A stretch of DNA of 64,000 nucleotides from a virus, in IMG/VR virus record IMGVR_UViG_3300027969_002350, positions 26,494-90,493 of that record; one strand, given 5' to 3'. A program made the position numbers and the translations under genes. The stretch's first letter is position 1, and every line of letters starts with the position of its first letter. The notes under the pieces were generated by a model. The model searched no databases and was not told the DNA's origin. It worked only from the letters and a program-made list of their open reading frames with translations. Of the stretch, positions 12,362 to 54,078 are shown in pieces.

Positions 12362-13223
12362 TTTTGAAACAGATAAAAACTATCTTCCAGTATTGGATCA
12401 TGGTTTTGTAGGTCTTGTTGACCATATGGGCAGTGATAACGCCATCGTTCAAGCCGCTCGTGTTAGTTATGGTGCTGGCACAAAACAAGTTCAAGATGAC
12501 CGCAACTTAATCCGGTATCTAATGCGTCATGAACATACAACACCATTTGAAATGTGCGAAGTAAAGTTCCACATTAAACTTCCTATCTTTGTTATGCGAC
12601 AACTTGTACGGCATCGTACAGCCAGCATGAATGAATATAGTGCTCGCTATAGTGTGCTTACAGATGAGTTCTACATTCCAGAGTTTGAACAAATACAAAA
12701 GCAAAGCACAACTAACAAGCAAGGCAGAGAAGAAAGTGCCTGGGGCTTTGATGAGAAGCGTAGCGTACAACATGCTTTCCAACGTAGCTTTCATAATGCA
12801 TACAAAGAATATGCAAGTTTGCTGGGCAAGGAAGATTCTGGACTGGCACGTGAGCTTGCTAGGAGTGTGCTTCCAGTAGGCGGATATACAGAATTGTATT
12901 GGAAAGCCAACTTAAAGAACTTTCTGCACATGGCTCGCTTACGCATGGATCCACACGCTCAATGGGAGATCCGAGAGTTTGCAGGCGCTATGTATGACTT
13001 AGTTAAGCCATTATTTCCAGAGGCATGTACTGCATTTGAAGACTACGCTGTTAACTCAGTGAAGCTAAGTGCTGGAGAGTACGAGCTAGTTAAGAATTTA
13101 ATTAGTCATGCTAAATGGGCTTCGTTAGTCGAGCAATACGGCAATGACGAAAAAGCACTGGGCGCAGACGCAGGACTTGGTGTTCGTGAACTTAAAGAGT
13201 TTAAAGATAAATTAGGTCTGTAA
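12339..13223 (+). CDS. thyX: FAD-dependent thymidylate synthase ThyX
   Basis: The 294-residue protein contains the complete ThyX signature RHRTASMNEYSARY at residues 91-104 (RHRxxSxNExSxRY), with the preceding QLV and an EHTTPFE segment typical of the family. ThyX makes dTMP from dUMP using methylene-tetrahydrofolate, NADPH and FAD, supplying thymine for phage DNA synthesis. It is common in marine T4-like phages. Its start overlaps the 12038 gene, and its end overlaps the convergent 13212 gene by 12 bases. Confidence 0.96.
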   Translation: MTLRTEINFETDKNYLPVLDHGFVGLVDHMGSDNAIVQAARVSYGAGTKQVQDDRNLIRYLMRHEHTTPFEMCEVKFHIKLPIFVMRQLVRHRTASMNEYSARYSVLTDEFYIPEFEQIQKQSTTNKQGREESAWGFDEKRSVQHAFQRSFHNAYKEYASLLGKEDSGLARELARSVLPVGGYTELYWKANLKNFLHMARLRMDPHAQWEIREFAGAMYDLVKPLFPEACTAFEDYAVNSVKLSAGEYELVKNLISHAKWASLVEQYGNDEKALGADAGLGVRELKEFKDKLGL

Positions 13224-13766
13224 AGGATCTACACTAAGTTCATTAATGTGAACTCCTGCAGGCTGCGAGATTATCCATTTGATATAATCAGCAGCCTGTT
13301 TTGTTGGCATTGTTTTCCTGTCAGGATGCTTGGTTTGATTATTAGATAAAGTACCAAAGCTAATCAATGTAACTTTGGGATTAGTTGCCCACACACCAGT
13401 CATACCCAAACTGTTAGCATAATCACGTAATGCTTTCTTTTCAGCATTATATAACCAATCTGTTGCTTTCATAACCCTATCAGTTGTACTACCAACACAA
13501 ATTATTAAAGTTTGTTTGTTTTCTGTTTTAAGTTTTTTGTATACTGCTTCAAGTAACAATGTTTGATTGAACTTCCACAATGCACTATTAATAATGACTA
13601 TATCGTAATCAATACTCATATCAGCAAATACTTGTTGGTGTTCTGCTTTAGTTAGATCTAACTTATGAGTTGTTCTACTTACAAAAGTAAGGTCATGTCC
13701 TGTTAGCTCTGTGTTAAGAGCTTCTGCTAATCCATACGCTGGATTACCTGATATTAATATTTTCAT
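13212..13766 (-). CDS. Short-chain dehydrogenase-like protein (NAD(P)-binding Rossmann fold)
   Basis: The 184-residue protein begins with a strand-loop MKILISGNPAYGLAEAL in place of the classic TGxxxGxG nucleotide loop. It has VIINSA where SDRs have NNAG, a Ser in ICVGSTTD, and YNAEKKAL matching the catalytic YxxxK. It is short but keeps the Ser-Tyr-Lys order of SDR reductases. It is last in an eight-gene operon and overlaps the preceding SGNH gene by four bases (ATGA). Likely role: oxidoreduction of the operon's sugar-like substrate (inference). Confidence 0.75.
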   Translation of the reverse strand: MKILISGNPAYGLAEALNTELTGHDLTFVSRTTHKLDLTKAEHQQVFADMSIDYDIVIINSALWKFNQTLLLEAVYKKLKTENKQTLIICVGSTTDRVMKATDWLYNAEKKALRDYANSLGMTGVWATNPKVTLISFGTLSNNQTKHPDRKTMPTKQAADYIKWIISQPAGVHINELSVDPLQT

Positions 13767-14494
13767 AATTTATTTATTTCTTCCATATCGTAATATACGT
13801 TAACGTCTGTTTTTGGACAATGATCAAAAACAGAAATATCAATTTCAATGTTGTTACCTTGCATTATTTTTTTAATCAAATCAAATAATACAAAATTATT
13901 TTCGTCTGATAAATGATTTTGTAATCTATCTTCTCGTTCAAAATGCATACCTTTGTGCGGAATATTGTAAAATTCTCTTTCTAACTCGTTTACCATGCCT
14001 AAATTAAATTCGTCAGCACAATTAATATACGGATTAGAATTTCTAGTTCTACTCTCAACCATACACGGTAGCATAATTAATTTAATATTATGTTCTGCAC
14101 ATACGTTTATAATTTTTTCAATTATAGCATCGTGAACAAATATATCAAACTCGTCAGTTTGAAGGTACTTATAATATTGTTCTGCTGCCTTAATATGTTT
14201 ATAATACATCTTTGTTTCGATGTTTGGCATGCTTAATTGATGTTCAACTACAAACAAATTGCAAATGCACATATCTACAGGAACATCGGTATAAAGTCTT
14301 CCAGGCGCAGTAATTGTAAAAATAACAGTATCGTAATCTTGATAGTTTTTTATAAAATGTTGATATGCGTGGAACAAACTTGTGCCTGGTTCTGAGTGAT
14401 TAATGGCATTTCCAAATTCGTTGTGCAATAATGTTGTCCAACTAGTTGGACCATTGCTTCCTGAAAAACTATCTCCAAAAATCCCTATTTTCAT
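13763..14494 (-). CDS. SGNH/GDSL-like hydrolase, 243 aa
   Basis: The N-terminal block I is MKIGIFGDSFSGSNGPTSW (GDS with the nucleophilic Ser). IFTITAPGR follows at the end of a strand, in the position of block III. The C-terminal catalytic Asp-x-x-His is not sharply visible, although DRLQNHLSDEN is a candidate. SGNH enzymes remove or transfer acyl groups on sugars or lipids. It is one of six SGNH-type genes in the window. It overlaps neighbours by four bases on both sides, so translation is coupled to the radical SAM gene upstream. Confidence 0.75.
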   Translation of the reverse strand: MKIGIFGDSFSGSNGPTSWTTLLHNEFGNAINHSEPGTSLFHAYQHFIKNYQDYDTVIFTITAPGRLYTDVPVDMCICNLFVVEHQLSMPNIETKMYYKHIKAAEQYYKYLQTDEFDIFVHDAIIEKIINVCAEHNIKLIMLPCMVESRTRNSNPYINCADEFNLGMVNELEREFYNIPHKGMHFEREDRLQNHLSDENNFVLFDLIKKIMQGNNIEIDISVFDHCPKTDVNVYYDMEEINKL

Positions 14495-15804
14495 TTAAAT
14501 AACCTTGTGTATTCTGGTGCAATATTTAATATGCTATGTCCACGTGCTTGATCCAAATACTTTGTAAACTTGACGAACTCGGGAAGTTTATCACTGTAGT
14601 CAGCACCTAACATGTATTTTGTAATACTGTTTAGTATGTTTTCTGCGTTCTTTGCAATGTCTTCTGGATACTCTGCTTTAAACTCAGCAATACATTTAGC
14701 ATAGTAGTCGACAATTTCTTGTTTCATGTCTGCAGGTAAAACACGAACGTTAACACGTTTTGGTCCGTGTGCTACATGATGTGTAATAATAGGACGCTTC
14801 TTTGTGCTATTGATCTTAGTAAAGCCACTGCTGTCTAGCTTCCATTTCATAAAACGAGGAACGTGCCAAATATTGTATGCTGTTACTGTACAGGCCATCC
14901 AGGCCATAATGTTTGGATTCTTTTCTGCATATTCGTCTAATTTCTGCAAGTTCTTGTATGCCTGTGTCCACTTTAAAGGCCAACGCTGATATTCAACTGT
15001 TTCGCCCATGCCGTCCATACTGGCACCAACACGCACTTGTTTAAACTGTGTCCACATATCTAATACACGCTGTGGCAGGTTACTCATGTTAGTGTTATAC
15101 TCAATGATCATCTTCTTACTTTGACCAGCATCAATGCATTTTTGCAAAAACTCATAATGACGTTCAATCATCATTGGTTCTCCGCCGGCCATATAAACAT
15201 GCTTGATGTTTGGAATGTTAGCTTCTATCTGTGTCCAAAATGATTCACTGTTGTGCCAGTCATAGTCAGTAGTAGATAGTCTGCCACTATCATTGCGCTC
15301 TAATTTAACTGTACCGTGCGTATCTTTGTATTCATCACTGCCATGATATTCAGTCCATTGTTCATACCAAGTGTGACTATCAGTAGGGCCGCACATACGG
15401 CAAGCAAGATTACATAAATTACCAAAACGCAAGTCGTAGTATTCTAAGTTTCTATTTTTAACCGAGCCATCTTCTTCTGTTATATAGCGAGCATCATCTA
15501 TACTAAACTTCCAGTTTTCTAATTCGTATTGTCTGCGACTGTTAAGTCCACTGGCCTCTTCTTGTTGGCATCGGCCACATTCTTGACTCCATTCTCCCAC
15601 TAGCATATTCTTGCGAACTTCTTTCATTAGTGTAGCATTACGAGCAGTTTCCATATTGTCTCTGCCAGCATTATATGGAGTGCCATCTTCGTGTCTAACT
15701 ACACCTTGATTCTCAGTTACATTGGCTTGACAGCATATACGAATGTCGCCATTATTTCGAACAGCTTGGAAGTTCCATGGTATAGGACAAAATGTATTAG
15801 TCAT
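14491..15804 (-). CDS. Twitch-type radical SAM protein
   Basis: The 437-residue protein starts with the family hallmark FCPIPWNFQAVRNNGDIRICC, has CGRCQQEEASG near residues 76-86, then C131-x3-C135-x2-C138 (CNLACRMC), GGEPMM, and ends LDQARGHSILNIAPEY. The N-terminal and inner Cys groups are consistent with an auxiliary Fe-S cluster beside the catalytic one. It overlaps both neighbours (8 and 4 bases). Sequence order and motifs are closest to the 29379 protein. Confidence 0.88.
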   Translation of the reverse strand: MTNTFCPIPWNFQAVRNNGDIRICCQANVTENQGVVRHEDGTPYNAGRDNMETARNATLMKEVRKNMLVGEWSQECGRCQQEEASGLNSRRQYELENWKFSIDDARYITEEDGSVKNRNLEYYDLRFGNLCNLACRMCGPTDSHTWYEQWTEYHGSDEYKDTHGTVKLERNDSGRLSTTDYDWHNSESFWTQIEANIPNIKHVYMAGGEPMMIERHYEFLQKCIDAGQSKKMIIEYNTNMSNLPQRVLDMWTQFKQVRVGASMDGMGETVEYQRWPLKWTQAYKNLQKLDEYAEKNPNIMAWMACTVTAYNIWHVPRFMKWKLDSSGFTKINSTKKRPIITHHVAHGPKRVNVRVLPADMKQEIVDYYAKCIAEFKAEYPEDIAKNAENILNSITKYMLGADYSDKLPEFVKFTKYLDQARGHSILNIAPEYTRLFK

Positions 15805-17167
15805 TTATTCTTCCCTTGTATTCTATTGTATCTACTATTCGTTTCCATAAATCAGGCAAGTTTCTTCTTAAGTCTTGTCCTCTTATTTTATCCAAGTCTG
15901 CTGTATATTCAACAAAAAGTTTTAATTGTTCCTTATCGACTTCTTCTTTGGCATGTAATGCATTTACTACGTTAGTATAAATCCTATACAATCCTAGTTC
16001 GGCTAGCCATTTTTTGTCATGGTCAACATCACTGTTATTCATTTGTTCCAATAAAGTATCTCTGTGCGTTACTAACTTATGCACTAGTAACTTTTTTGCA
16101 GGATATAGTGTTGGGCTTAGATATTTTGGATCATATAAAATATTAATAATCATAGTAGTAAAATCTGAGCCGTAATATCTAACTAGTACATCCCACCATT
16201 CTTTATTAGATATTTCTTTTTGTAAAGCAAACCACCACTCTAACATTTTATGAAATGTCCATACATTAAAAATACTTAATACAGGAGCCCATTTAATGTA
16301 TATACGTTCTGGATCATCTTTTTCTGTTATTAACCATTCTCTTACTGATGCTTCTACAATGTTCCATTCACTAGGAAATCGGATATAATCATTGACTGGG
16401 CCCACGCCATCGACGCTTAGATTAACAATAACTTTTTTAAATTGTTTAAGACGGCTTAATACTTTTTCTTTTGGTACCCAGCTTGCATTAGAAAAGATGT
16501 CTAGTATGATTTGATCCTGTCGTCCTGTAGATATAATCATATCGATTGCTTCAATAAAATTAGGATGCAACATTGGTTCGCCTCCTGTAAATTTAATTTC
16601 TTCAACATCCCTAAAGTCTTCGATGTCCCAGTTATTATCAACGTTAATAACTGTTTTATGAAATTTTCTATCCGAATAATACGACGCAAGTTTATTGTCG
16701 TCATCGTACCATGTAGTACTTAAACTACCATTACAAGTCCTGCATTTTAAATTACAGTGATTACCAAACGCTAGTTCAATATATCTAATTTTATTTTTTT
16801 GATTAGGATCAGCAAGTTGCTCTTGGTTGTTTTCATTCCACATCAAATTTGCTTTTTCTCGCATACTTTTATTTTTTCGACGAGCATTTTTAACTTCTGG
16901 TAGTGTACTAGTTTCTTCTTGATAACATTTTCTACAGCCTGGAACTGGTTTGCCAGCAATAATAGTTTGTCTAATTTCTTCCCACTCGGGCGAGTTTAAT
17001 GCCCCAGTAAAAGAAATATTATCAACATTGAACTTGTCAAATTTAAATTCGTTACCTTTAACTTTATAGTCAGGATGTTTAATATCAAAACGGCAGCAAG
17101 GTTTTATTTCTCCTGCTGGTTTAGTTTGAAGATGTATCCATGGGAGAATACAAAAAACATTACTCAT
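15797..17167 (-). CDS. Twitch-type radical SAM protein
   Basis: Start taken at ATG 17167, where FCILPWIHLQTKPAGEIKPCC begins; the 23 extra residues upstream lie in the previous gene and do not fit the family. The protein has 456 residues with CRKCYQEE at ~78-85, C138-x3-C142-x2-C145 (CNLKCRTC), TGGEPMLHPNF, and an end signature LDKIRGQDLRRNLPDL. It resembles the radical SAM half of the 22789 fusion protein, including a Trp-Tyr-Asp segment after the cluster. The 8-base overlap with its upstream neighbour suggests coupling. Confidence 0.88.
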   Translation of the reverse strand: MSNVFCILPWIHLQTKPAGEIKPCCRFDIKHPDYKVKGNEFKFDKFNVDNISFTGALNSPEWEEIRQTIIAGKPVPGCRKCYQEETSTLPEVKNARRKNKSMREKANLMWNENNQEQLADPNQKNKIRYIELAFGNHCNLKCRTCNGSLSTTWYDDDNKLASYYSDRKFHKTVINVDNNWDIEDFRDVEEIKFTGGEPMLHPNFIEAIDMIISTGRQDQIILDIFSNASWVPKEKVLSRLKQFKKVIVNLSVDGVGPVNDYIRFPSEWNIVEASVREWLITEKDDPERIYIKWAPVLSIFNVWTFHKMLEWWFALQKEISNKEWWDVLVRYYGSDFTTMIINILYDPKYLSPTLYPAKKLLVHKLVTHRDTLLEQMNNSDVDHDKKWLAELGLYRIYTNVVNALHAKEEVDKEQLKLFVEYTADLDKIRGQDLRRNLPDLWKRIVDTIEYKGRIND

Positions 17168-18326
17168 AACTCTTATCTCCTGGAAACAAAGGTAACTTAG
17201 TGCCAGGAGCACGTTTTGGAATCTTACTATCTGCACTACTTACACAACTTGTCCCGCCACAAGGCATTGGCTTGTCATATAACTTAAATCCAGTTTCAAT
17301 ATGTCCTAAAGGAACTTCGCTACAACTATAACTACGTTTTACTGTGCCGTCTGGTTCGCGAATAATAATACTGCGAAATCCACTACTACACTCCCATTTA
17401 TTAAAGTTATTAAAGTTAAAAGCATTAAAACGTTCTGCTTGATCCATAAACCAAGGCTTGCCTTCTTTATCAACAAACTCAATTTGATAGTGTGGATCAA
17501 CATCGACTTGTTTCTTACGCTGAGTATCTGCCTTGTCAATCATGAACGTAGGTTTCGGACGTTTCACTAATCCAGACTTTAATGCTTTTTCTTCTGTGTA
17601 AGCACGTTGTGGCATACCATTGTGTAACTTAGCCAACATCTCAGGTGTATAACCATCTACCACACGGCTTGCAGTAGGATCGCTTTGTGGCTTGAGTGTT
17701 ACGTTGATACCTCTATTGTGAAAGTATAAACTTAGATCATAAATCTCATTAAACTGTTCTGGCACCATAACCATATTAATAGTTATTTGTGTGTCATATT
17801 CTTGGCATAAGACTAGTTTGTCAGCAAACTCTTCTACTTTCTTATCTGTGTCAACATGTTCACGATGGCAACTTGCTGTAATACTAGCACGATGAAAATT
17901 TTTAACTGCTGGCACATATTGTTCTTCAAACCATTTCATAGGACGACTCATGTTACTGGTCATATGCACACTGGTATAGTTTGTGTTAGCCGCATCATTA
18001 TTTAAATGATTAAGGATGTCAATGTAAGCTGGATGGAATGTGGGTTCTCCTCCACTTAGACTAAAGTGGAAACTATTAAATCCATTTTCTCTAGCTTGAC
18101 GTTTTATCTCATCTACAGTATGTAACATTAAAGGTGTAGGGCGATGGTCCTTTGTGTCACTGCGAGCATACGGCCAGCAATAACTACAACGATAGTTGCA
18201 GTATCGTCCTAATAGCCACGATACGGTAAACATATCGCGGTATAGCATTGTTCTTTGACCAACTCTAACTAAGTCGTTAAATGGAATCTTAGTAAAGTCA
18301 TATTCACTGGTTTTTAAATCACTCAT
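17160..18326 (-). CDS. Radical SAM protein with Cys-rich C-terminal (SPASM-like) region
   Basis: The 388-residue protein belongs to a different subgroup. The cluster motif is near the N-terminus (C43-x3-C47-x2-C50, CNYRCSYCWPYARSD), followed by SLSGGEPTFHPAY. The C-terminal quarter has several Cys (WECSSGF; YSCSEVP; MPCGGTSCVSS) that could hold an auxiliary cluster. The arrangement recalls quinohemoprotein- or peptide-modifying radical SAM/SPASM enzymes as well as sugar-modifying ones. The 32847 protein is its nearest relative here. It overlaps the 77-aa gene upstream and the radical SAM gene downstream by eight bases each. Confidence 0.85.
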   Translation of the reverse strand: MSDLKTSEYDFTKIPFNDLVRVGQRTMLYRDMFTVSWLLGRYCNYRCSYCWPYARSDTKDHRPTPLMLHTVDEIKRQARENGFNSFHFSLSGGEPTFHPAYIDILNHLNNDAANTNYTSVHMTSNMSRPMKWFEEQYVPAVKNFHRASITASCHREHVDTDKKVEEFADKLVLCQEYDTQITINMVMVPEQFNEIYDLSLYFHNRGINVTLKPQSDPTASRVVDGYTPEMLAKLHNGMPQRAYTEEKALKSGLVKRPKPTFMIDKADTQRKKQVDVDPHYQIEFVDKEGKPWFMDQAERFNAFNFNNFNKWECSSGFRSIIIREPDGTVKRSYSCSEVPLGHIETGFKLYDKPMPCGGTSCVSSADSKIPKRAPGTKLPLFPGDKSYE

Positions 18327-18552
18327 TTTTTTCGTAGATAAATTTTACTTCTTTGCCTGGTCCTGCTTCGCTGGGCAGGCCGCCATACTCTTTAATATAC
18401 CAAGTAATAGCAGCCTTGTACCATCCTGTGCTATCATGCCTACTTTCTTTATTAAACTTATATATGTTATCATTGGTTGCTTCCATGCTACTAATAATTC
18501 TAGCGGCTTCTAATTGTAACACTCTTAAGGGCATTGTGTCAAGGTCTATCAT
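18319..18552 (-). CDS. Small protein between two radical SAM genes, 77 aa
   Basis: The 77-residue soluble protein is overlapped by the radical SAM genes on both sides (8 and 4 bases), so it is made together with them. A helical first half (LRVLQLEAARIISSMEATND) is followed by a Trp/Tyr-rich segment (STGWYKAAITWYIKEYGGL) and an acidic-basic tail. There are no Cys residues. It could be a radical SAM partner or carrier domain, or a substrate. No family recognised. Confidence 0.7.
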   Translation of the reverse strand: MIDLDTMPLRVLQLEAARIISSMEATNDNIYKFNKESRHDSTGWYKAAITWYIKEYGGLPSEAGPGKEVKFIYEKNE

Positions 18553-19751
18553 AGGTCCAAATTATTCATTAGTTTAATTAATTTATCTGTTTTCTTAACA
18601 GCTTGTTTGCGCTCTAAAAATTCCTGTGCCAGTTGTTTATAGTTATCATTGTATGCTGTACCAATTCTAAATATCATATTATCAAGAAACGTGATAAAGT
18701 TTTCGGGGTCTACATGATTAGAATTGGCAATATTATCCAACACAACTTTTTTAGCCTGTTCCATGTATTTAAGATAATATATCGGAAGATTTGCAATATC
18801 CAATTCAGTGGGTACACTTATAAAATTTCCGTACCACGTAAATTTTTTATTTGGTGCGTGAGTTTTGAATTGTTCATATATCCAAGAAATATATTGTGAA
18901 AAACTTTTTAAGTTAAAAATATTAACAGTAGGACTTAGTACTATTAATTCTGTCTTAGGATGTGTTATGTATCTAACAAAGTTTTCTTGAAAACAAGTCC
19001 AATCTAAACCGTGTCTTATAAGTTCAGCATCCTCTCCAAAACTTTCATTGCTAATGCCAATTCCCCATGACAAATTACTTGTGTCCATTTTAGCAACAAT
19101 TTTATCCATCAAGAATCGTTTACTATTGGCATTAGTACATATTTCTAATCTAATATTTTTACTGCTATTCTTTGAGCACTCATCAATAAAATCTACTAAC
19201 TCATAAAAACGATTACTGGCAGTAGGCTCTCCACCTAAAAATATAAAAATTATCTTATTAGCATACAGTTCTTTATCGATATGATTTTTAATCCACTGCT
19301 TAAAAACTGTATAATCATCCTCATTAGTATTATCTACTATTTCAATGCCTTCTTCTTGCGCTATCTTACTGCTACTACCAGACCAACAATATATGCAAGA
19401 CATATCACATATTCTATCAGGTCTAATTTCTATATAACTAATATAGCTATCACCCTCTAAGCTATTTCTTTTATCTTCAATAAAGTTATTATCCCATTTA
19501 TTGGCCCATTCTTTAAAGGCGCTATTACCTTTATTATAATCATTCCAACAGTTATTACAATCAATATGTTTAACATTTTTTAAACTTGCAATTCTTCTAT
19601 CTGTTATGTACTCATTTTTACTAATAAAATCTTCAGTTAGTTTGTCGGGAAACTGATGTGAAGCAGCCTTGCAACAATGGCTTACTGATCTTAATTCAAA
19701 ATTAATATTAATATCTGTCCAACTTTTAGAACAGTAAGTTTCGTTGCTCAT
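18549..19751 (-). CDS. Radical SAM protein, divergent twitch-type
   Basis: The 400-residue protein has N-terminal Cys pairs at C26-C27 (SVSHCCKA) and CNNC (65-68), radical SAM motif C115-x3-C119-x2-C122 (CDMSCIYC) and FLGGEPTASNRF. Unlike its relatives it begins CSKSWTDININFE instead of FC-PW, and lacks a clear Asp-x-x-Arg-Gly end motif. It overlaps the nitroreductase gene and the 77-aa gene by four bases each. Substrate unknown. Confidence 0.85.
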   Translation of the reverse strand: MSNETYCSKSWTDININFELRSVSHCCKAASHQFPDKLTEDFISKNEYITDRRIASLKNVKHIDCNNCWNDYNKGNSAFKEWANKWDNNFIEDKRNSLEGDSYISYIEIRPDRICDMSCIYCWSGSSSKIAQEEGIEIVDNTNEDDYTVFKQWIKNHIDKELYANKIIFIFLGGEPTASNRFYELVDFIDECSKNSSKNIRLEICTNANSKRFLMDKIVAKMDTSNLSWGIGISNESFGEDAELIRHGLDWTCFQENFVRYITHPKTELIVLSPTVNIFNLKSFSQYISWIYEQFKTHAPNKKFTWYGNFISVPTELDIANLPIYYLKYMEQAKKVVLDNIANSNHVDPENFITFLDNMIFRIGTAYNDNYKQLAQEFLERKQAVKKTDKLIKLMNNLDL

Positions 19752-20491
19752 ATACTAACTATCATAGTTTCTTGCTTTTGATTGATAGTAAAACTTTCTT
19801 CGCGTCCGCCACGTTTAAAATGCGTTTCCCCGTCTAAATATTCTTCTTTTACTGATACATTTTTACCTGCATATATATCAACAATTTTTTTATCTTTTGG
19901 TCCAATACATATAGCTACTACCGCTTCAACTGGTTGTTGAGAAAAATCATCTCCAAATTCTTTTGCAAGTAACCGAACAAATTGTTTATTGGATAATACA
20001 TCTTCCATACCGCAGGCAACAAATGCCGTGCCATAACCAAGATCCTCAGCAGTTAACTGTGCGTATGTGGCGCTAATCATTGCGTCACGTACAGCACCTT
20101 TGACCATAACATATTTAGATACAGGACTTTTAACTTCGCTGTATACTCTGTCATATACTTCTGTTCCTTTACTTTCTACAAGATCAACCATTTGATGCTC
20201 TGGAGCAGGGTTTGTTATATAAAGTAATACCAACGGGGCTTTAGTTTGTAGCAGATATATTTCTTTACCAAGTTCGTCATTACACGATGTAATATTATCA
20301 CATAGTTCTGACTTTAATCTTTTACCGGCTGCAGAGTCTGTCAACGCAAACACTTTGTATCCATATATTTTGTTTTTACTTGGTGCACGACGGGCACTAT
20401 CCAAAATAGTTTGAACATCGTCTTCGTTGATTTCGTCGGTCATTAACCTAGTAGTAAATCTAGATTTAATTAATTCATTCACTGTTGACAT
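19748..20491 (-). CDS. Nitroreductase-family FMN oxidoreductase
   Basis: The 247-residue protein has the nitroreductase N-terminus (LIKSRFTTRLMTDEI; ILDSARRAPSKNK), where RxS/T binds FMN phosphate, and the later GYGTAFVACGMED segment typical of the family. Members reduce nitro, quinone or flavin substrates with NAD(P)H; some act on cofactors or dehalogenate. It leads the eight-gene operon containing four radical SAM genes, so it could supply electrons or perform a reduction in the same pathway (inference). AAGGAG precedes the ATG, and a TATAAATA octamer lies at 20526-20533. Confidence 0.88.
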   Translation of the reverse strand: MSTVNELIKSRFTTRLMTDEINEDDVQTILDSARRAPSKNKIYGYKVFALTDSAAGKRLKSELCDNITSCNDELGKEIYLLQTKAPLVLLYITNPAPEHQMVDLVESKGTEVYDRVYSEVKSPVSKYVMVKGAVRDAMISATYAQLTAEDLGYGTAFVACGMEDVLSNKQFVRLLAKEFGDDFSQQPVEAVVAICIGPKDKKIVDIYAGKNVSVKEEYLDGETHFKRGGREESFTINQKQETMIVSI

Positions 20492-20553: not shown

Positions 20554-21294
20554 ATGGCAGACGATTTAGTAAACGAATATGGTGTAAGTAACGAGGACCC
20601 AAAATCATTTGCTAATAGGAACAACCATCCTGCTAACATAAAATATCCACAGAATTTAACAAATGGTAGAGAAGTTAATATGTCTAGTGACATTCCATTT
20701 TTACCAATAGACGATTGGAAGGATACTGCTGATTGGAATCAAATGTTGTTTGAAGCAAAACGCTTACAAAAGCATTATGTACAGCATAGAAGTCACGAGT
20801 TACATGCAGGCTGGAGTAGTTTATGTATACACGGTCTTAGTAGTGTTCATACAGAAAGCAGTCACACATATGGATTTACAGATGCAGATGCTCCTTGGCG
20901 CTGGACCGATGTAGCTGATTGGTGTCCCACGATTAGAGCATTCTTTAAGGATCAATTTGATTATAAAAAATACTTTAGAATACGCATTATGAAATTGGCT
21001 CCTGGCGGATGGATCGTACCGCATAAAGATAGCATGACTCAAGACGAAAATCATATAGGACCAGTTAATATTGCCATCAATCATCCTGCAGATTGTCACT
21101 TCTATATGGATAACATTGGTTATTTGCCGTGGGAGGCAGGGCGAGCAATTAAACTGAACTTATATAATGTACACCAAGTGTATAATCATAGCAACGAGGA
21201 TAGATATCATATCATTGCACACGGCCATGCAGGAGATAGTTGGTCCAATCGATTATATCATAATTACAATAATTGGAAGAAAATATATGAATAA
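20554..21294 (+). CDS. Aspartyl/asparaginyl beta-hydroxylase-like 2OG-Fe(II) oxygenase
   Basis: The 246-residue protein contains FRIRIMKLAPGGWIVPHKDS with HxD at H157/D159, then INHPADCHFYMDN and the distal His H207 in LNLYNVHQVYNHS, and an Arg (R217) for 2-oxoglutarate. This order matches Asp/Asn beta-hydroxylase-type enzymes, which hydroxylate protein side chains or sugar-linked groups. It starts a rightward operon with the 21287 and 22789 genes (8- and 4-base overlaps), so it probably acts in the same pathway as that radical SAM fusion. Confidence 0.85.
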   Translation: MADDLVNEYGVSNEDPKSFANRNNHPANIKYPQNLTNGREVNMSSDIPFLPIDDWKDTADWNQMLFEAKRLQKHYVQHRSHELHAGWSSLCIHGLSSVHTESSHTYGFTDADAPWRWTDVADWCPTIRAFFKDQFDYKKYFRIRIMKLAPGGWIVPHKDSMTQDENHIGPVNIAINHPADCHFYMDNIGYLPWEAGRAIKLNLYNVHQVYNHSNEDRYHIIAHGHAGDSWSNRLYHNYNNWKKIYE

Positions 21295-36511: not shown

Positions 36512-36512
36512 T

Positions 36513-41526: not shown

Positions 41527-41861
41527 CGTTTGTATGCTCTTATCTGTTTTATTTTATTATCTTGATCAAACTCTATAACGTCAACTACCTGTGCTACTAT
41601 TGAATTATTAATTATAACTTTTATTTCTGCTATAACTGTGTCTAATCCTACAGCAATTTTATCGACATCAATTCTTATTGCTTCAACCGAGTTAAAGAAG
41701 TTTTGATTAAATTTTAAAATATTATCTTTACCTACTATTTGCACTTCCCAGTCTGTTAATACGATGCTATCACTGAACAATACTTCTAATGATGCGGCAT
41801 CTTTTTTACAGAAGCTTTGAAAGTACATTAATGCTATTTGGCTCTGTGTTGGATTACTCAT
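41523..41861 (-). CDS. NTF2/SnoaL-like small protein, 112 aa
   Basis: The pattern MYFQSFCKKDAASLEVLFSD, VLTDWEVQIVGKDNI, then antiparallel strands (IAEIKVIINNSIVAQVVDVI) and the ending IKQIRAYKR is typical of SnoaL-like members of the NTF2 superfamily. These are cone-shaped small enzymes or ligand-binding proteins, often isomerases or cyclases in natural-product pathways. It overlaps neighbours by four and eight bases. Likely an enzyme of the same sugar-like pathway, reaction unknown. Confidence 0.8.
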   Translation of the reverse strand: MSNPTQSQIALMYFQSFCKKDAASLEVLFSDSIVLTDWEVQIVGKDNILKFNQNFFNSVEAIRIDVDKIAVGLDTVIAEIKVIINNSIVAQVVDVIEFDQDNKIKQIRAYKR

Positions 41862-43386: not shown

Positions 43387-43819
43387 GTTCGTAACTAACT
43401 CTTCCATGTGTCCTACCACCGTCATCTTGTAAACGAATTACATCATCCAGTTCGGTGGTACTGGTTTCCATAAACTCTAAATCTGTCGTGGCCATAACAC
43501 GATGAACATAACCTGGAGTTACATTAAATACAACACCTTCTTTAAGATCGATAACTTCAAATGTAGATTCGTATTCTTCAACTTGTTTACTAGTCATGCC
43601 ATGTTCTAAAAACTTTGCAATATCTAATGGTTCCTTACTACGATGTAATACACCCGTGCCGCTTAAAACATAGTTAGTTTCTATTTTGTATTCGTGTACT
43701 TGTAAACTAGTCCTATTACCTGCTTTAAATAAGATTCGTTTGCTGGCGTAAGGAGTAGCAGAGCCATCAGCAATCCACAATTCATAACCCCAGTGTTTAG
43801 TTACTTTTTTTATGCTCAT
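43379..43819 (-). CDS. Cupin, phosphomannose-isomerase-like, 146 aa
   Basis: KKVTKHWGYELWIADG is the opening typical of the type II mannose-6-phosphate isomerase C-terminal cupin. SLQVHEYKIETNYVLSG has the metal-binding His and Glu, FNVTPGYVHRVMA the later His, and DDVIRLQDDGGR the end motif. A stand-alone cupin of this kind isomerises or epimerises sugar phosphates. It overlaps the nucleotidyltransferase/kinase gene downstream, supporting a joint role in making an activated sugar. Confidence 0.85.
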   Translation of the reverse strand: MSIKKVTKHWGYELWIADGSATPYASKRILFKAGNRTSLQVHEYKIETNYVLSGTGVLHRSKEPLDIAKFLEHGMTSKQVEEYESTFEVIDLKEGVVFNVTPGYVHRVMATTDLEFMETSTTELDDVIRLQDDGGRTHGRVSYEHE

Positions 43820-47870: not shown

Positions 47871-48696
47871 CCAATTCTCCTTCTAAGCCGGATTTTATTT
47901 TTCGATTTAAATAGTCCTGACCCCTATAAATTTTAGGATCAACTGTTAACGGACTTATTTCAATGTTAAACATCTTTGCATAAAAATATAACGCATGTTC
48001 GGTGCCGATTAAATTCTTATTAAACGTTCGTTGGCCTATGACCGGCAGCCATCTATAAAACTCACATATCCTATTAAATGTAACGCTATCAGCAAACCAA
48101 AATACATCACCCAATCTATGAAAGGGAAACTGTACATCATCCTTAGCAGTATGGCAGCTATAAAATGTATTACTATTTGGATAAACTAAGTCTTTGGAAA
48201 CAAAATGTTTAATTTGATAATCTTCAAAAAACATATCAGTTCTCATCCTAATACATACATCATATCTAAAATTGTTGTCATATTCATATTTCTTTTTTAG
48301 ATGGCTGGCATGCATTATACTATAAAATTGGCCTGCGCACCATTCCAGCTTAGTAATACCATGTTCATTTATATGTGGGAAATTTCTATCACGTGTTTCT
48401 TGAATTTTATTTTTATTTGATGTTTCGTCTTCAAATAAAAATGAAATAGGATTCAACGAAGAAACTATACTACGCTTTTCATCTTCCGATATTGTTTCGC
48501 CTGGGACCGTCATATAATCCCATCCTTCGTGCATTAATAATCTATGCGGCGGCGTATTATAATCCCACATGTGGAAAAATATATCAACTGAATCAACTTT
48601 ATAATTAGCTTTTATTGTTTCAATAAATTTGTGCCAAGTTAAATGACATTTTTCCCATGTTCGTGGCTGGCCGCTTAAACAAATAGCAACTCTCAT
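47851..48696 (-). CDS. Glycosyltransferase-like protein of the SGQ family, 281 aa
   Basis: MRVAICLSGQPRTWEKCHL, DIFFHMWDYNTPP, FYSIMHASHLKKKYE and DVCIRMRTDMFFED give the complete family outline and match the 46953 protein block by block. DVFWFADSVTF is a later conserved-looking segment. It overlaps the radical SAM gene upstream by four bases (ATGA), indicating coupled translation of the radical SAM protein and this transferase. Confidence 0.77.
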   Translation of the reverse strand: MRVAICLSGQPRTWEKCHLTWHKFIETIKANYKVDSVDIFFHMWDYNTPPHRLLMHEGWDYMTVPGETISEDEKRSIVSSLNPISFLFEDETSNKNKIQETRDRNFPHINEHGITKLEWCAGQFYSIMHASHLKKKYEYDNNFRYDVCIRMRTDMFFEDYQIKHFVSKDLVYPNSNTFYSCHTAKDDVQFPFHRLGDVFWFADSVTFNRICEFYRWLPVIGQRTFNKNLIGTEHALYFYAKMFNIEISPLTVDPKIYRGQDYLNRKIKSGLEGELGGHELI

Positions 48697-50093
48697 TTAG
48701 AATTTTTCCATTTAGTGTAGTATGGCTCAAATTCTGGAAACGTTTCTAAAAAGTTAGTGCCGCGACGTTTATCATGTTCATCAACGAATGCAACTAAATC
48801 TTTTTGATATACTGTTACTTCCTCGGGATCTTTTTGATTCATAGTTAATTCATATATGCGTTTAAATTTTTCTGCCTCCCATTTAAAGAATCCTTGATTA
48901 GCACTTCCGTACCATTCACCATTTTCTAAATTACGATACATCATTGTTACTTGATCAAAAATATACTCTTTAGCCCATGACGATGGCATAACATGAAAGA
49001 TACTTTGATGTGCCGGGTGTCTTAGAAACGGTGCATCTAAAATTAACGGGGCATGAACTGCATCGTGTCCTCCAAATTCGTTTTTAATAGCTAATACATC
49101 TTGTAAGAACAACGAATAAGTGGGAATACTAAGCACATTGTACGTACTCATGATAGTAATAGTACACTCGGGTATTTCTTTTAACACTCTGCGAATATTA
49201 CTTAACCATAAATCATAATTTAAGCCGTCACGTATATATTCTGCTGCCTTACCATGAGCATCACAGCTTGTAAAGATTTTAAACTTTTTAACTTTCTTTT
49301 CTTCACAGATAATTTTAACCTTTTCAAGGAACTTGTCAAATAACTGTGATGGTACACACAAGTTACTATTAATACTCAAATGTATATCTGGGTTAGGATT
49401 CTCGATCACATAATCAAGAACTTTAAAGGTATCCTTACTTAGTAACGGCTCGCCGCCGGTTACACGAAAATGCTGTAACTCTTTATAAACTGTGGGCCAC
49501 CATTTCCAAAATGCGTCCACGTAAGGGTTATATTGATTATGCGGGATTGGCATTTGGTCAATTTGTTTTAGTCCTGCAATATCATTAAAGTTGCCATGAG
49601 TAGGATAAGGACCGTGTTGTTTAATTTCTTCCATCCATAGGCTACTCACTTGTGGACTACAATAGCTACATTTAAAATTACAGACGTTACTAAAACTAAC
49701 TTCTAAATAACTTGGAGCAACATCTTGATCCCAGGGCATCTTACTTACTTCTTCAAAATGAGGCTTTGCCCATACGTCATAACTTTTGTAAATTCTATCG
49801 CTAAGAGCATCGGGGGCGCTGTCTTCTACTTTCCAACAATAGTCGCATTCTTTTGGACGTACACCTTCTAACATTAATTTACGTTGTTCTTTTTTGAACT
49901 TAGTATTATGTAACGCACTAGGATTGGCAGCTAATTCATCTAAAGGAATTTTGTGTGTAGTAGGATGATGACAACTATGGTTGTGTCCTGTCTGTAAATG
50001 CAATGTTACTTGCTTCCATTTAGCAATACAAAAACTTGGACTAACATCGTTAATCTTTTTTTGAAATGCAATGATATCTTTATTATGTTCCAT
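48693..50093 (-). CDS. Twitch-type radical SAM protein, 466 aa
   Basis: FCIAKWKQVTLHLQTGHNHSC at the N-terminus, CDYCWKVEDSA at ~83-93, C138-x3-C142-x2-C145 (CNFKCSYC), VTGGEPLL and the end motif DKRRGTNFLETFPEF. It is the nearest relative of the 2209 protein, with which it shares the KWxQVxLxL start and an ALSDRI/GLSDRI stretch. It is the only radical SAM gene in the 18-gene operon, placed between glycosyltransferase-like genes of two families. Confidence 0.9.
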   Translation of the reverse strand: MEHNKDIIAFQKKINDVSPSFCIAKWKQVTLHLQTGHNHSCHHPTTHKIPLDELAANPSALHNTKFKKEQRKLMLEGVRPKECDYCWKVEDSAPDALSDRIYKSYDVWAKPHFEEVSKMPWDQDVAPSYLEVSFSNVCNFKCSYCSPQVSSLWMEEIKQHGPYPTHGNFNDIAGLKQIDQMPIPHNQYNPYVDAFWKWWPTVYKELQHFRVTGGEPLLSKDTFKVLDYVIENPNPDIHLSINSNLCVPSQLFDKFLEKVKIICEEKKVKKFKIFTSCDAHGKAAEYIRDGLNYDLWLSNIRRVLKEIPECTITIMSTYNVLSIPTYSLFLQDVLAIKNEFGGHDAVHAPLILDAPFLRHPAHQSIFHVMPSSWAKEYIFDQVTMMYRNLENGEWYGSANQGFFKWEAEKFKRIYELTMNQKDPEEVTVYQKDLVAFVDEHDKRRGTNFLETFPEFEPYYTKWKNSK

Positions 50094-50094
50094 A

Positions 50095-51066
50095 TTAATT
50101 TATTGAATTATTGACTTGGTTTTCTTTAACCTGGGCGCCAAGCCTGGGTGGATTAATCCAACTTTCTTTAAACATTTTGCTACCGTTGAAGTCTAATTCT
50201 GCTACCTCTAATCCTAGATTAGTGCGTAGAGATTCGCCTAACTTAAAAATTTCATCTTGTAGTTTTTTCTTATCATATGTCCAACCAGAAGTTAGACATT
50301 TTTCGTTGCCGCCCTCGAACTGTGGCTGTACACTATCTTTCCAAAATGCATCATGCCATTCAAAGTCTCGGACTAATGTAAAATCAAAATCTTGTCTAGC
50401 TAAATTTGACATGTAACATCCTAGTCTAGTTCCATACATTGCCCATAGTCCGTTGTCAATATCCGAACCAACACTGGCCCATACTAATAAACGTTTATAG
50501 TTTCTATCATGTACACGTTCTTTAAGTCTCCGCGGATCAACAAGTCCACCTCCTTCTAAGGCAAGTTTAACACCTTCTCTGAATCCTGCACGATATGCTT
50601 GATAAGCACTAGCATTGTTATGTACATCACTATAGATATTATTCATTTGATGATAGTAAATATCCCAACAAAAATCTACCTGTGCCTTGGGATCATCTGC
50701 GGCTTCGTGTGTTTTCATTTGTTCTACAACATGCTTAGGCCAAAGTTTAATTCCGCCATTACCATAAACTAATCCGTTGACAACATTTTTGCCAGCCCAT
50801 GATATAACATCGTGTCTGTTAATCCTTGTCATGTCTAATTCAATAGTTAGAAACTCGTCACGAACAATGTTGTCAGCATCAACTGTAATAAATCTATCTG
50901 TTTCGGCTGAGGCTGCGGCAGCTTTATGTGCCGCATCAAAGCCTTTGACTCCGTGTACCCGTTTGGCCCATGGTGCTTTATTGCAAAGATCAGCAAAATT
51001 TTTATCTGCGTTTGGTTCATCGTAGCTTAAAAATACGATATCAAAACTAGTAATAGGTACAAGCAT
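50095..51066 (-). CDS. Glycosyltransferase-like protein (copy 4 of 4), 323 aa
   Basis: DIVFLSYDEPNADKNF, VHGVKGFDAAHKAAA, DxD motif FITVDADNIV, NGLVYGNGGIKLWP and YRAGFREGVKLALEGG show it is a paralogue of the 36513 protein, despite lying 13 kb away in another operon. It shares the same long C-terminal region. The separation suggests duplication followed by gene shuffling rather than a simple tandem event. Overlaps the 51047 gene by 20 bases. Confidence 0.78.
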   Translation of the reverse strand: MLVPITSFDIVFLSYDEPNADKNFADLCNKAPWAKRVHGVKGFDAAHKAAAASAETDRFITVDADNIVRDEFLTIELDMTRINRHDVISWAGKNVVNGLVYGNGGIKLWPKHVVEQMKTHEAADDPKAQVDFCWDIYYHQMNNIYSDVHNNASAYQAYRAGFREGVKLALEGGGLVDPRRLKERVHDRNYKRLLVWASVGSDIDNGLWAMYGTRLGCYMSNLARQDFDFTLVRDFEWHDAFWKDSVQPQFEGGNEKCLTSGWTYDKKKLQDEIFKLGESLRTNLGLEVAELDFNGSKMFKESWINPPRLGAQVKENQVNNSIN

Positions 51067-52027: not shown

Positions 52028-52843
52028 TTATTTTTTTAAATTTAGTAAAGTTTCTTCAGTTAACCAGCCAATTGTTTCATATTTAACTAACCCTAATTGT
52101 ACAAAATTTTCAATTTTAAGAGTACTAGAGTCATTGACCCAATAAGTTAAAAATTCACTCCATCGTCTAGTCCAATTATTATTAACAAAATTATTTTCTT
52201 GTTTTGATAAATCTATACAATGCATAAAATCATATGTAGAAATTTTGCCACTGGTTATTACTTGTAATAATGATAGTACCCAGCCGACCCATATAAACTT
52301 AGGGAACGATGGCATCTCATGTTCTTTATCTGCAAAAAAATTAATATAATTGTCTTGATCATAATTGGCACATAATATAGTAGCCAGGCCAAAAATGTTA
52401 TCACAACCCTTATCTTTATTAAAAAATATAGCATTAGGAATACTACAAAGTCCAAAATTTTTTAATTCTGTACTTGGATTATTGTACAATACCGGATCTA
52501 TGATTTGACTATTAAACGAATATCGATTCCTGGGTAGTATGATAGAATCTAAACCTCTAAGATTTTCCCATACTGTAGTGTCAAATGCTGTTAATAATTG
52601 ATCAGGCAATAACGCAATAGTCTTAGTATACGGAGTTGCTAACAACGCTTGAAAATAGCATAATGTAGGATTTTTGTCTTTTAAATAGATAACTTTATCT
52701 GCTTTTATGAATTTGATATCCTTATTGTTGACAATGACGCTAACAGGACGAGTAGGATCTATTTTTTTAATACTATGAATTAATAAATCTATTTCGACTT
52801 GATTGTCTACATCTCCGTTTACTATTAGATAACCTTCACTCAT
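52028..52843 (-). CDS. Degenerate glycosyltransferase-like protein, 271 aa
   Basis: The fold outline follows the next gene's product: VSVIVNNKDIKF near the start, then PYTKTIALLPDQLLTAFDTT where the 52836 protein has PYKQTLMIDVDYIVGNNSLD. The DxD metal motif is thus replaced by Leu-Pro-Asp, so a metal-dependent transfer reaction is doubtful. It may be a non-catalytic partner of its paralogue; the two genes overlap by eight bases. Confidence 0.6.
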   Translation of the reverse strand: MSEGYLIVNGDVDNQVEIDLLIHSIKKIDPTRPVSVIVNNKDIKFIKADKVIYLKDKNPTLCYFQALLATPYTKTIALLPDQLLTAFDTTVWENLRGLDSIILPRNRYSFNSQIIDPVLYNNPSTELKNFGLCSIPNAIFFNKDKGCDNIFGLATILCANYDQDNYINFFADKEHEMPSFPKFIWVGWVLSLLQVITSGKISTYDFMHCIDLSKQENNFVNNNWTRRWSEFLTYWVNDSSTLKIENFVQLGLVKYETIGWLTEETLLNLKK

Positions 52844-53732
52844 AGATAAGTTCCTTAAGTTTAGGGTAGTGTCTTAAAATTGCCATTTTATTCATTAAGT
52901 GTATGTTTTCGTTTATTACTCTGCTACAGATATTTTTCCATAATTCTTTAGGATCAGGGCACAATAAAACGTAATCGCTGAGTGATTTAAATTCCACAAT
53001 GTCATCAATTTGTTCACTGAACCTCATTGCTTTTCCTGGAAGCTCTGATACAATATTTCCCGAATCGTGTCCGTTTAATACATGTGTTGCAATACTGGCA
53101 GCATAGTCGGTTCTGAACAATGCGCCCGGAAACTTGTACAGCCATTTATAATATTGATAATTCTCTTTGACATGTTCCCATATTCCAAAGAATAATTTAG
53201 CCACTTCACTATCGCTTCTCCAATAAACAACAGTACTCCACCACATGTCTATACCATCTGGATGTAGTTTTTGTTCCCAGATACGTGGCTTATAATTACG
53301 AACACTGATAGCATCTTTATACATTGCTAGTTCATAATTAGTATCAAATATTGTATCTAAACTATTATTGCCCACAATGTAATCAACGTCGATCATTAAA
53401 GTTTGTTTGTAAGGACTTTTTTGAAAGATGCTGTGTTTATTCTTATTATTGAATTGTGTACTAAATTCTGTCCAAGGACTATCTCTATGCATCCTTGTAT
53501 TACGTTCGTGTTGAATATCTTCTACAATAATATGGTCAAAAGTATCAGCAAGTTGCTCCATGGTTAATTCTGCTTGTAACACGTTGTATGTTTTTAAATC
53601 CGTAAGCAAGGTTACATGATTGTTTTTCATGTGACGTTTTACGTTTGATGCTGCCACAATGGCTAATTTTTCATAATCAATTTTGCCGTTGTTATATGCA
53701 ATCAGCAAAACACCTTTATCAAATTTAGGCAT
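52836..53732 (-). CDS. Glycosyltransferase-like protein with DxD motif, 298 aa
   Basis: VLLIAYNNGKIDYEKLAIVA and HVTLLTDLKTYN fit the first strands of a GT-A fold. TLMIDVDYIVGN carries the DxD metal motif, and DGIDMWWSTVVYWRSDSEVA with a later DYAASIATHVLNGHD complete a donor/acceptor-binding outline. It probably transfers a sugar from a nucleotide donor. It is second in the 18-gene operon and overlaps the genes on either side by eight bases. Confidence 0.72.
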   Translation of the reverse strand: MPKFDKGVLLIAYNNGKIDYEKLAIVAASNVKRHMKNNHVTLLTDLKTYNVLQAELTMEQLADTFDHIIVEDIQHERNTRMHRDSPWTEFSTQFNNKNKHSIFQKSPYKQTLMIDVDYIVGNNSLDTIFDTNYELAMYKDAISVRNYKPRIWEQKLHPDGIDMWWSTVVYWRSDSEVAKLFFGIWEHVKENYQYYKWLYKFPGALFRTDYAASIATHVLNGHDSGNIVSELPGKAMRFSEQIDDIVEFKSLSDYVLLCPDPKELWKNICSRVINENIHLMNKMAILRHYPKLKELIYE

Positions 53733-54078
53733 TTAATCCAACCAATCCTTTAGTGTCTCGCTGTTTTCTTATTTTTTCATAGCTATTGTAGTATTCGTTG
53801 AGAGCTTCTGTGTATGCACTAAACAATCTAGTATGAAAATCTTCCAACGCTGTTATTAAAATTGGATTATTGTTGTCGTCGATGACAACAAACTGTTCTA
53901 CTTTTTTATCTATTAAGTGTTGAACAAAATTGATTAGTTCTAAAGTTGCAGTAAACATAGAATTAGAATACCCGATAGTTAACATCGTATTCATTCGTTG
54001 TTTTAAATTAAGTTTTTGATTGTTTAAAGTTAAGCGGTAGTTACTGAACTCTAACGCTTCTTTTAATTTGTCGTCCAT
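53725..54078 (-). CDS. Conserved-type hypothetical protein, 117 aa, operon leader
   Basis: The 117-residue helical protein (LKEALEFSNYRLTLNNQKL; LEDFHTRLFSAYTEALNEYY) has a short strand pair in the middle (EQFVVIDDNNNPILI). Similar small helical proteins occur next to structural genes in T4-like marine phages, as far as I recall. A TATAAATA octamer lies 28 bases before the ATG and GGAG close to it, so this message has a normal leader. It leads the 18-gene operon. Confidence 0.7.
   Translation of the reverse strand: MDDKLKEALEFSNYRLTLNNQKLNLKQRMNTMLTIGYSNSMFTATLELINFVQHLIDKKVEQFVVIDDNNNPILITALEDFHTRLFSAYTEALNEYYNSYEKIRKQRDTKGLVGLNA

Follow-up and report, generated by a model that had tools for sequence, protein, structure and literature searches.

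Phages packed with radical S-adenosylmethionine (rSAM) genes have been reported since 2010, without tested function in those papers; here and below, statements on the literature extend to excerpts of the papers cited. The Campylobacter phages CP220 and CPt10 have 11 and 12 rSAM genes, respectively, five of which belong to an interchangeable module (Timms 2010, PMC2853527), and rSAM genes are listed as a rare feature in a Campylobacter coli phage paper (PMC3322345). A T4-like TARA genome carries 12 (PMC5332604), and the Aeromonas jumbo phage 332-Vera has eight, located in a structural cluster that also includes five tail fibre genes (PMC12390700). The host recognition cluster of pelagimyophages averages 44.6 kb and includes glycosyltransferases (GTs), and two pelagimyophages differ by rSAM cassettes (PMC7029224). 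Enrichment of rSAM genes in Tasman Sea viromes (PMC7150976) and a carbamoyltransferase cluster in a jumbo cyanophage (PMC7824862) have also been described, and the excerpted text of a survey of 224 jumbo phages does not mention 'radical SAM'. We analyzed a 64,000-nucleotide stretch (the window), bases 26494–90493 of the 90,493-base virus record IMGVR_UViG_3300027969_002350, in which an island of rSAM and other enzyme genes lies at positions 13212–54078. Comparison with related loci indicates that this island is no random pile-up and is a fast-changing gene set around a conserved core common to many uncultured aquatic giant phages. As a tentative explanation, with a probability of roughly 0.4, it may be a late, soluble tailoring line that decorates the phage's own tail proteins.

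The closest described systems share parts of this arrangement. CP220 and CPt10 resemble the window in having 11–12 rSAM genes per genome and an interchangeable module, which in CP220 includes two nucleotide-diphospho-sugar transferase-domain genes and lies near a baseplate lysozyme gene. They differ in the size of the module (~10 kb), in its other enzymes (amidinotransferase), and in lacking the 77-aa gene described below, and CP220 has no match over the cut-off (170 bits) of the N-twitch rSAM family (NCBIfam NF033640, N_Twi_rSAM). TARA_ERS488813_N000010, a T4-like 183-kb marine genome with 12 rSAM genes, and 332-Vera, which belongs to another phage family (Chimallinviridae), were compared by description only. 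As in the pelagimyophage cluster, including that of Mosig EXVC030M, the window has tail genes adjoined by a variable region in which GTs and rSAM cassettes occur, and Mosig also carries a carbamoyltransferase, Asp/Arg hydroxylases, nitroreductases, and MoaA-like genes; however, Mosig has two Pfam rSAM matches, none of the N-twitch family, and is of another phage lineage. The Vibrio phages K566 and K567 are similar in rSAM content (six matches in K566, N-twitch family over the cut-off), whereas they lack the 77-aa gene and their cluster lies among NAD and nucleotide genes. The Agrobacterium phage Atu_ph07 and the Sinorhizobium phage Phosso, of the same jumbo clade by DNA polymerase, hold an rSAM cluster at the same place behind homologous tail genes, but with four Pfam rSAM matches each, of distant families, and with no match to our GT, methyltransferase (MT), and 77-aa profiles in the 28 proteins tested. 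A first-pass annotation of the window had known of no described phage pathway of this size. That view needs narrowing, since phages with 8–12 rSAM genes were already published, while neither the scale, with up to 20 per record, nor the conserved core appeared in the literature excerpts.

Within the island, Pfam Radical_SAM matched the genes at 14491, 15797, 17160, 18549, 22789, 24809, 26062, 29379, 32847, 33815, and 48693 (n = 11), and outside it those at 2209 and 3538; 3 of these 13 matches (14491, 18549, and 2209) were below the Pfam cut-off. The genes at 31106 (split with 30829) and 31787 gave no Pfam match but contain CX3CX2C, the motif for the 4Fe-4S cluster, and align with 33815 and 26062. 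With 11 loci recognized in the island by Pfam and two by motif and alignment, the count is 13 in the island and 15 in the window, and CX3CX2C is present at all 15. The first-pass annotation had counted 14 and 15, and its observation of such an island is confirmed. Its reading of at least three rSAM classes and of one fused and one split gene was borne out. The classes are N-twitch, C-terminal SPASM-like, and the MoaA-like pair 17160/32847. Scores over the N-twitch cut-off were obtained for 29379 (431 bits), 14491 (383 bits), 48693 (341 bits), 2209 (218 bits), 15797, 22789, and 24809; 18549 scored 153 bits, below it, and 3538 was placed as N-twitch type by alignment alone. In an alignment of nine window proteins (A1), an N-terminal cysteine domain lies ahead of CX3CX2C, and C9, C90, C93 and C146, C150, C153 are invariant. 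The gene at 22789 is a real fusion containing an N-twitch rSAM. The pair 31106/30829 (30829–31777) consists of an rSAM-core open reading frame (ORF) and an overlapping ORF with a C-terminal cysteine domain, and the split is not a base error, because the same two-ORF overlap is kept in the related loci L011, L017, and L021 (identity 50–60%). A programmed frameshift was ruled out for this pair, as the second ORF possesses an ATG of its own, and the length of the A run is not constant. An assignment of 17160 (M17) as viperin was also ruled out (40 bits against a cut-off of 180).

Related loci were collected by scanning viral contigs with 29379 (T29), which gave 180 relatives, and the best 80 of these were fetched. 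They reduced to 59 non-redundant loci, 43 of them at least 18 kb in length (long loci); among the fetched loci, L009 duplicates the window. T29 is present in all 43 long loci by construction, and family counts are best-hit labels, some at 20–30% identity. The island is coded on the minus strand at 13212–20491, on the plus strand at 20554–24852, and on the minus strand at 24809–54078, and its genes are as follows.

53725–54078, minus: 117-aa conserved protein on the island's tail-side edge; found by match in 38 fetched loci, duplicates not removed
52836–53732, minus: GT-like gt528; matches in 49 fetched loci (not de-duplicated), weak Pfam GT28_C match below cut-off
52028–52843, minus: GT-like gt520; no Pfam match, 43% identity to the same-place protein in the related record G007
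50095–51066, minus: GT-A family protein gt50, aligned with 37501 (GT-A model); label in 15 of 43 long loci
48693–50093, minus: N-twitch rSAM
39732–43819, minus: accessory sub-cluster, aldolase-like, shikimate-dehydrogenase-like, SnoaL-like, nucleotidyltransferase-kinase, and cupin by Pfam (the last two below cut-off); the first four in 1–5 of 43 long loci
38263–39735, minus: carbamoyltransferase (PF16861 and PF02543); in 11 of 43 long loci
37501–38238, minus: core protein gt37, GT-A fold by AlphaFold and Foldseek; in 38 of 43 long loci
35831–37523, minus: gt35 and gt36, further gt37-family members by alignment; each in 12 of 43 long loci
34987–35838, minus: core protein mt34, predicted class I SAM methyltransferase fold (AlphaFold and Foldseek); in 36 of 43 long loci
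33815–34987, minus: core rSAM S33 with C-terminal SPASM-like cysteines (PF04055); best-hit label in 42 of 43 long loci
30829–33818, minus: variable rSAM cassette of 32847, 31787, and the conserved split gene 31106/30829, by Pfam, motif, and alignment
29379–30779, minus: core N-twitch rSAM T29 (alignment A6)
24809–29386, minus: variable cassette of rSAM 24809 and 26062, 2-oxoglutarate (2OG)-oxygenase-like 27120, and SGNH-like 27934 and 28682 (oxygenase and SGNH names by motif reading)
20554–24852, plus: opposite-strand cassette of Asp/Arg hydroxylase 20554 (Pfam), unknown 21167, and fused N-twitch rSAM 22789
18549–20491, minus: nitroreductase 19748 (Pfam) and N-twitch-like rSAM 18549, with TATAAATA at 20526 (minus)
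18319–18552, minus: conserved 77-aa gene, previously unannotated (71 aa from the second Met), by ORF and profile A8
17160–18326, minus: core MoaA-like rSAM M17 (Pfam, alignment A7); best-hit label in 28 of 43 long loci
13212–17236, minus: N-twitch rSAM 15797 and 14491, SGNH-like 13763, and SDR-like 13212 (the last two by motif reading)

In addition to these core labels, the 24809 type occurs in 32 and the 14491 type in 30 of the 43 long loci; counted as 40%-identity clusters, S33 is present in 39, the 14491 type in 28, and M17 in 21. The core order across the 59 loci is tail edge (if the flank reaches it), gt528, gt50, gt37 (with gt36 and gt35 in some), mt34, S33, variable rSAM genes, T29, variable genes, and M17, and mt34 adjoins S33 in 36 loci, where the 77-aa gene may intervene. 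Orthologues of M17, which was not used for locus choice, are 66–95% identical to the window protein among the 17 aligned (A7 holds 17 of 26 M17 best hits, and the rest, weak ones among them, were omitted); S33 is mostly 45–70% identical to the window copy and mt34 often below 30%. Profiles built here found 469 rSAM ORFs in the 59 loci and the window, which at 40% identity fall into 110 clusters, including 62 singletons, and each long locus holds 6 to 12 rSAM genes (median 9, n = 43). CX3CX2C is kept in 464 of the 469. Neither of the outcomes that the first-pass annotation had said would overturn its picture, unrelated insertions in place of a conserved gene neighbourhood and broken cluster motifs, was seen. 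Between the window and near relatives, changes at the first, second, and third codon positions number 35/12/152 for T29 (467 codons), 22/16/123 for S33 (391 codons), and 22/9/136 for M17 (389 codons); the third position dominates, and this pattern of the core rSAM genes reads as purifying. These observations bear on the view published for the Campylobacter phages (PMC2853527), by which the island would be unlinked metabolic cargo gathered at a hot spot and boosting host metabolism. The variable cassettes agree with such cargo, whereas the recurring core order, the high M17 identity across lineages, and the purifying codon pattern speak against it, and we consider it quite improbable.

At the level of whole records, each of 14 related contigs has between 7 and 20 Pfam rSAM matches, and those of one record do not all lie in one cluster. 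Among the comparison phages, there are 11 such matches in CP220, 6 in Vibrio K566, 4 each in Phosso and Atu_ph07, 2 in Mosig, 1 each in GAP32 and C48C1, and 0 in Vibrio 2.275.O and S-SSM7. Of 17 phage records, 15 gave an N_Twi_rSAM match over the cut-off; none of the 14 cellular control genomes did, although all 14 gave weaker matches; G001 and G004 in this set are one lineage, and G002 and G005 look close. Two N_Twi_rSAM matches contain one in-frame TGA each (G002:C1:223219–224286 and G005:C1:33266–34327). A megablast search of window positions 30000–54000 against phages gave no match.

The DNA polymerase of the record is nearest to those of Phosso (48.9%) and Atu_ph07 (46.2%), followed by other jumbo phages, and a gene pair for a MoxR-type ATPase and a metallopeptidase-vWA protein lies at window positions 7429–10104. 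Such a pair has been reported for group 2.2 jumbo phages (Iyer et al. 2021, PMC7824862). On both grounds the record comes from a jumbo phage of the Atu_ph07 type, of which it is a fragment, and not from a pelagimyophage. The island is preceded on the same strand by the following genes.

56802–63959, minus: w56802, a giant tail/structural protein probably truncated where the contig ends; ~300-aa local matches to the Atu_ph07 and Phosso giant structural proteins (E 1e-30 and 2e-34), 53% to a 2868-aa ORF in G007
56149–56760, minus: tail-module protein; 41–43% identity to syntenic Atu_ph07 and Phosso proteins
55172–56113, minus: tail protein, its Peptidase_G2 (IMC) match weak and below cut-off (Pfam E 0.009); same-place homologues in Atu_ph07, Phosso, and G007
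54133–55170, minus: structural-type protein with two long (Gly-Tyr)n runs at the island junction; same-place related ORFs in G007, L040, L035, and L172
54107–54114, minus: TATAAATA, T4-late-promoter-like, upstream of the first island gene, by motif scan and non-coding enrichment

The same run of genes followed by the same island start is found in G007. In Atu_ph07 and Phosso, homologues of 56802, 56149, and 55172 are followed by the cluster, which comprises unknown genes and four rSAM matches, two and three of the latter, respectively, being over the Pfam cut-off. In each of these two phages, an rSAM/SPASM gene (81% identity between the two copies) lies next to a 300-aa protein that terminates in CHSSCHASCHNSRSRR or CHTSCHASCHSSRSRR (L262:17119–18009 and L263:16415–17335), a tail of Cys-His-X-Ser repeats (CHxSCHxSCHxSRSRR). 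The peptide maturases DynA, PapB, DarE, sulfatase maturase, and HxsB are among the best NCBIfam matches of the rSAM/SPASM gene, all far below cut-off, and the tailed protein is a possible rSAM target in Atu_ph07 and Phosso. In each of the four records with (Gly-Tyr)n runs, these lie within 6 kb of an N_Twi_rSAM match.

The motif TATAAATA, which we take to be the T4 late promoter core, ranked first of 56 same-composition 8-mers for non-coding location, with 24 of 62 matches in the 6.3% of the sequence that is non-coding. In the window, copies stand upstream of the genes ending at 54078 (the tail/island junction), ending at 20491, and starting at 11160. This enrichment and the copy at the junction suggest that the island is probably expressed late, together with the virion genes.

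The first-pass annotation had assigned several non-rSAM enzymes to the island. Its carbamoyltransferase and nitroreductase were confirmed by Pfam, as was one of its two 2OG-Fe(II) oxygenases, the Asp/Arg hydroxylase; the other, 27120, and the SDR at 13212 are mostly motif readings. Among its six SGNH hydrolases, 46034 matched DUF6071 over and GDSL-lipase under the cut-off, 27934 matched DUF6071 under it, and the other four had no match. Among its nine GT-like proteins, the four genes of the 37501 family are supported by the GT-A fold model, and the other five have weak or no family matches. The AlphaFold model of gt37 (pLDDT 91.5) retrieved WrtF, SunS, polypeptide GalNAc transferases, and a PBCV-1 capsid-glycosylation enzyme in Foldseek, at modest TM-scores against GT-A enzymes (~0.3–0.4), and that of mt34 (pLDDT 92.1) retrieved TehB, NodS, and BioC, from which a class I methyltransferase fold is predicted. 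In six loci (L056, L058, L063, L068, L071, and L076), gt50, gt37, and mt34 are joined in one ORF, a natural fusion suggesting that the three work together. Against PDB sequences, the GT and MT alignment profiles had no match, and A7 and A6 gave weak matches to sulfatase-maturase (E 0.0035) and SkfB (E 0.016).

The 59 loci contain 983 ORFs encoding 150 aa or more; transmembrane (TM)-like segments were absent from 968, single in 12, and two or more in 3 by hydropathy scan, which is not a trained TM predictor; in the window, the scan flagged 45237 alone, marginally. This near-absence suggests that the pathway is probably cytoplasmic, without the usual membrane parts of a surface polysaccharide locus. 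It also bears on the main rival explanation, in which O-chain or capsule sugars of the host envelope would be made or edited to block superinfection. Such a role has been proposed for the pelagimyophage (PMC7029224) and jumbo cyanophage (PMC7824862) clusters, and the carbamoyltransferase, nucleotidyltransferase-kinase, cupin, and GT-A proteins, the gene classes in common with Mosig and S-SSM7, and a cassette polymorphism resembling that of surface loci all favor it. However, no flippase, polymerase, or lipid-carrier transferase family is among the island Pfam matches, and the membrane proteins of this kind expected of a lipopolysaccharide or capsule locus were not seen in the window and the 59 loci by hydropathy scan only. 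Host glycan remodelling appears somewhat unlikely.

The 77-aa gene, missed by the first-pass annotation, fills the 222-base gap between 17160 and 18549. It was found in 43 of the 80 loci and in 33 of the 59 non-redundant ones, and many loci without it end before its expected place. Of the 33 loci, 24 have it flanked by mt34 and S33, and it directly precedes M17 in the window, L018, L026, and L032; codon-position differences between the window and L018 number 2/1/19 over 72 codons. With profile A8, a single copy was detected in 14 of 15 jumbo records (not in G008) and no homologue in K566, CP220, and Mosig. The protein had no match in 50,697 phage records, no PHROG, and one match in a bacterial genome collection, a metagenome-assembled contig. 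A separate A8 scan gave at least 387 relatives, and the best 80 of these loci all have at least one rSAM gene in the fetched flank, most often six; contigs recur between the fetched sets, some of them from the T29 set. Second copies in the loci searched were looked for, with none below E 0.9, and an A8 match to PDB at E 3e-8 was taken as noise, comprising only 16 residues of a designed repeat protein, with designed proteins and antibody chains making up the rest.

Many SPASM enzymes act on peptides, and the 77-aa protein or another peptide could be a precursor or scaffold for the rSAM enzymes, with a free small molecule or a peptide like the ribosomally synthesized and post-translationally modified peptides (RiPPs) as the product. 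The recurrent position of the gene between mt34 and S33 or ahead of M17, its single copy in nearly all the jumbo records, and the rSAM genes in all 80 A8 loci count for this possibility, and a small conserved gene beside an rSAM/SPASM gene, as in RiPP clusters, is present except in G001 and G004. On the other hand, the protein is conserved from end to end (A8) and single-copy, unlike a precursor with a leader and a variable core; no protease or exporter is among the Pfam matches of the window island; and G001 and G004 keep the gene far from the island. A free peptide or small molecule as the product seems quite unlikely. In G001, the 77-aa homologue (174000–182000, L093) stands amid MTAN-, ClpS-, HSP20-, IF3-, and ClpX-like genes, named from their translations (MTAN also by PF01048). 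This MTAN could clear 5′-deoxyadenosine from rSAM turnover; as a support enzyme it is sporadic (PF01048 in 5 of 18 records).

The far border of the island is marked by a further enzyme gene.

12339–13223, plus: flavin-dependent thymidylate synthase (PF02511); matches in 24 fetched loci

The border thymidylate synthase is of the ThyX type in the window and of the ThyA type in four other records. PF00303 (ThyA type) matches 7 of 18 records, within ~1.5 kb of an rSAM match in G001, G004, G009, and G013 and elsewhere in G003, G010, and K566. ThyX and ThyA near the island border look like a non-homologous swap at about the same place (window 12339–13223; L089, L090, and L091). This enzyme, the GT-A proteins, and the capacity for carbamoyl transfer would be in keeping with hypermodification of the phage DNA by GTs and rSAM enzymes. 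All four ThyA-type proteins read keep the PFN asparagine, which we take to be the residue of an ordinary thymidylate synthase, although a dUMP hydroxymethylase would presumably keep it too. DNA modification is weakened by this residue and by the change of enzyme type at the border, and no base hydroxymethylase or base kinase family was found by Pfam among 60 window proteins; we regard it as highly improbable.

Taken together, the island may be an expanded, hypervariable form of the rSAM module behind the tail-adhesin genes of Atu_ph07-type jumbo phages. The GT-A glycosyltransferases, the methyltransferase, S33, T29, and M17 would build or attach a common group in the cytoplasm, and swappable rSAM, oxygenase, SGNH, nitroreductase, and carbamoyl cassettes would then tailor that group by C-H chemistry. 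Among acceptors, one of the phage's own tail or fibre proteins would be the likeliest, and the phage would benefit from a change in adsorption or recognition; we infer the late expression, the reactions, the acceptor, and the benefit alike. Decoration of the virion is favored by the conserved core with variable cassettes, by the tail-gene position shared with G007, Atu_ph07, and Phosso, and by the non-coding enrichment of TATAAATA. The near-absence of TM segments, the GT-A and MT folds, and the gt50-gt37-mt34 fusion point the same way, as do the rSAM/SPASM gene beside the Cys-His-X-Ser-tailed protein in the two cultured phages and the rSAM genes among tail fibre genes in 332-Vera. The first-pass annotation had proposed an assembly line for an unusual glycan or a decorated virion component; the folds, the lack of membrane proteins, and the tail position are consistent with this, and the proposal is partly supported, with its substrate conjectural.

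Several observations weigh against this explanation. No substrate motif is shared among the loci. Cys-His-X-Ser tails were ruled out as a general substrate, since they occur in two cultured phages only among the fetched loci (here including a third set, the best 80 of 124), and so were the (Gly-Tyr)n runs of 54133, present in 4 of 18 records only. In two other searches, low-complexity filtering excluded the Cys-His-X-Ser tail itself from the matches. Between the rSAM proteins of Atu_ph07 and Phosso and those of the window, similarity is only distant (best profile E 3e-8), the two phages' neighbouring proteins lack the GT, MT, and 77-aa matches as described above, and other jumbo relatives have no rSAM match (Vibrio 2.275.O) or one below cut-off (GAP32). 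Where 5.5 kb or more is available to the left of gt37 (33 non-redundant groups), the tail edge is visible in only 16 (in the window, cassettes place ~16 kb between gt37 and the tail edge), and the 77-aa gene is far from the island in the one lineage of G001 and G004. In the window, TATAAATA is rarer than chance (7 copies against 15 expected). T29 identity is at least 69% in the chosen loci, partly because these were selected as the best 80 hits to T29. T4-like phages often keep cargo genes beside their tail fibres (PMC7029224), and the position of the island may therefore reflect a recombination hot spot.

In a different arrangement, the rSAM enzymes would have the tail-adhesin proteins themselves as direct substrates (Cys-His-X-Ser or Gly-Tyr tails, for example), as a combinatorial system of post-translational modification, with the 77-aa protein as a guide and each lineage applying its own chemistry to its receptor-binding machinery; we judge this unlikely.

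No paper on the N_Twi_rSAM family in phages, on the conserved core, or on the 77-aa gene was found in the open-licence literature. What is new here is that the genes resolve into a core and exchangeable cassettes common to many uncultured jumbo phages. This structure, together with the small rSAM cluster at the same place in two cultured phages, makes the question of function testable. If virion proteins are indeed modified, this would amount to a new means by which viruses vary their surface.

A phage Fer2 ferredoxin as the electron donor was ruled out, as it occurs in 1 of 18 records (Mosig). Outside the island, the window also contains a PhyH-type 2OG dioxygenase gene at 408–1103 and the following pair.

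2209–5010, minus: two further N-twitch-type rSAM genes, 2209 by profile and 3538 by alignment

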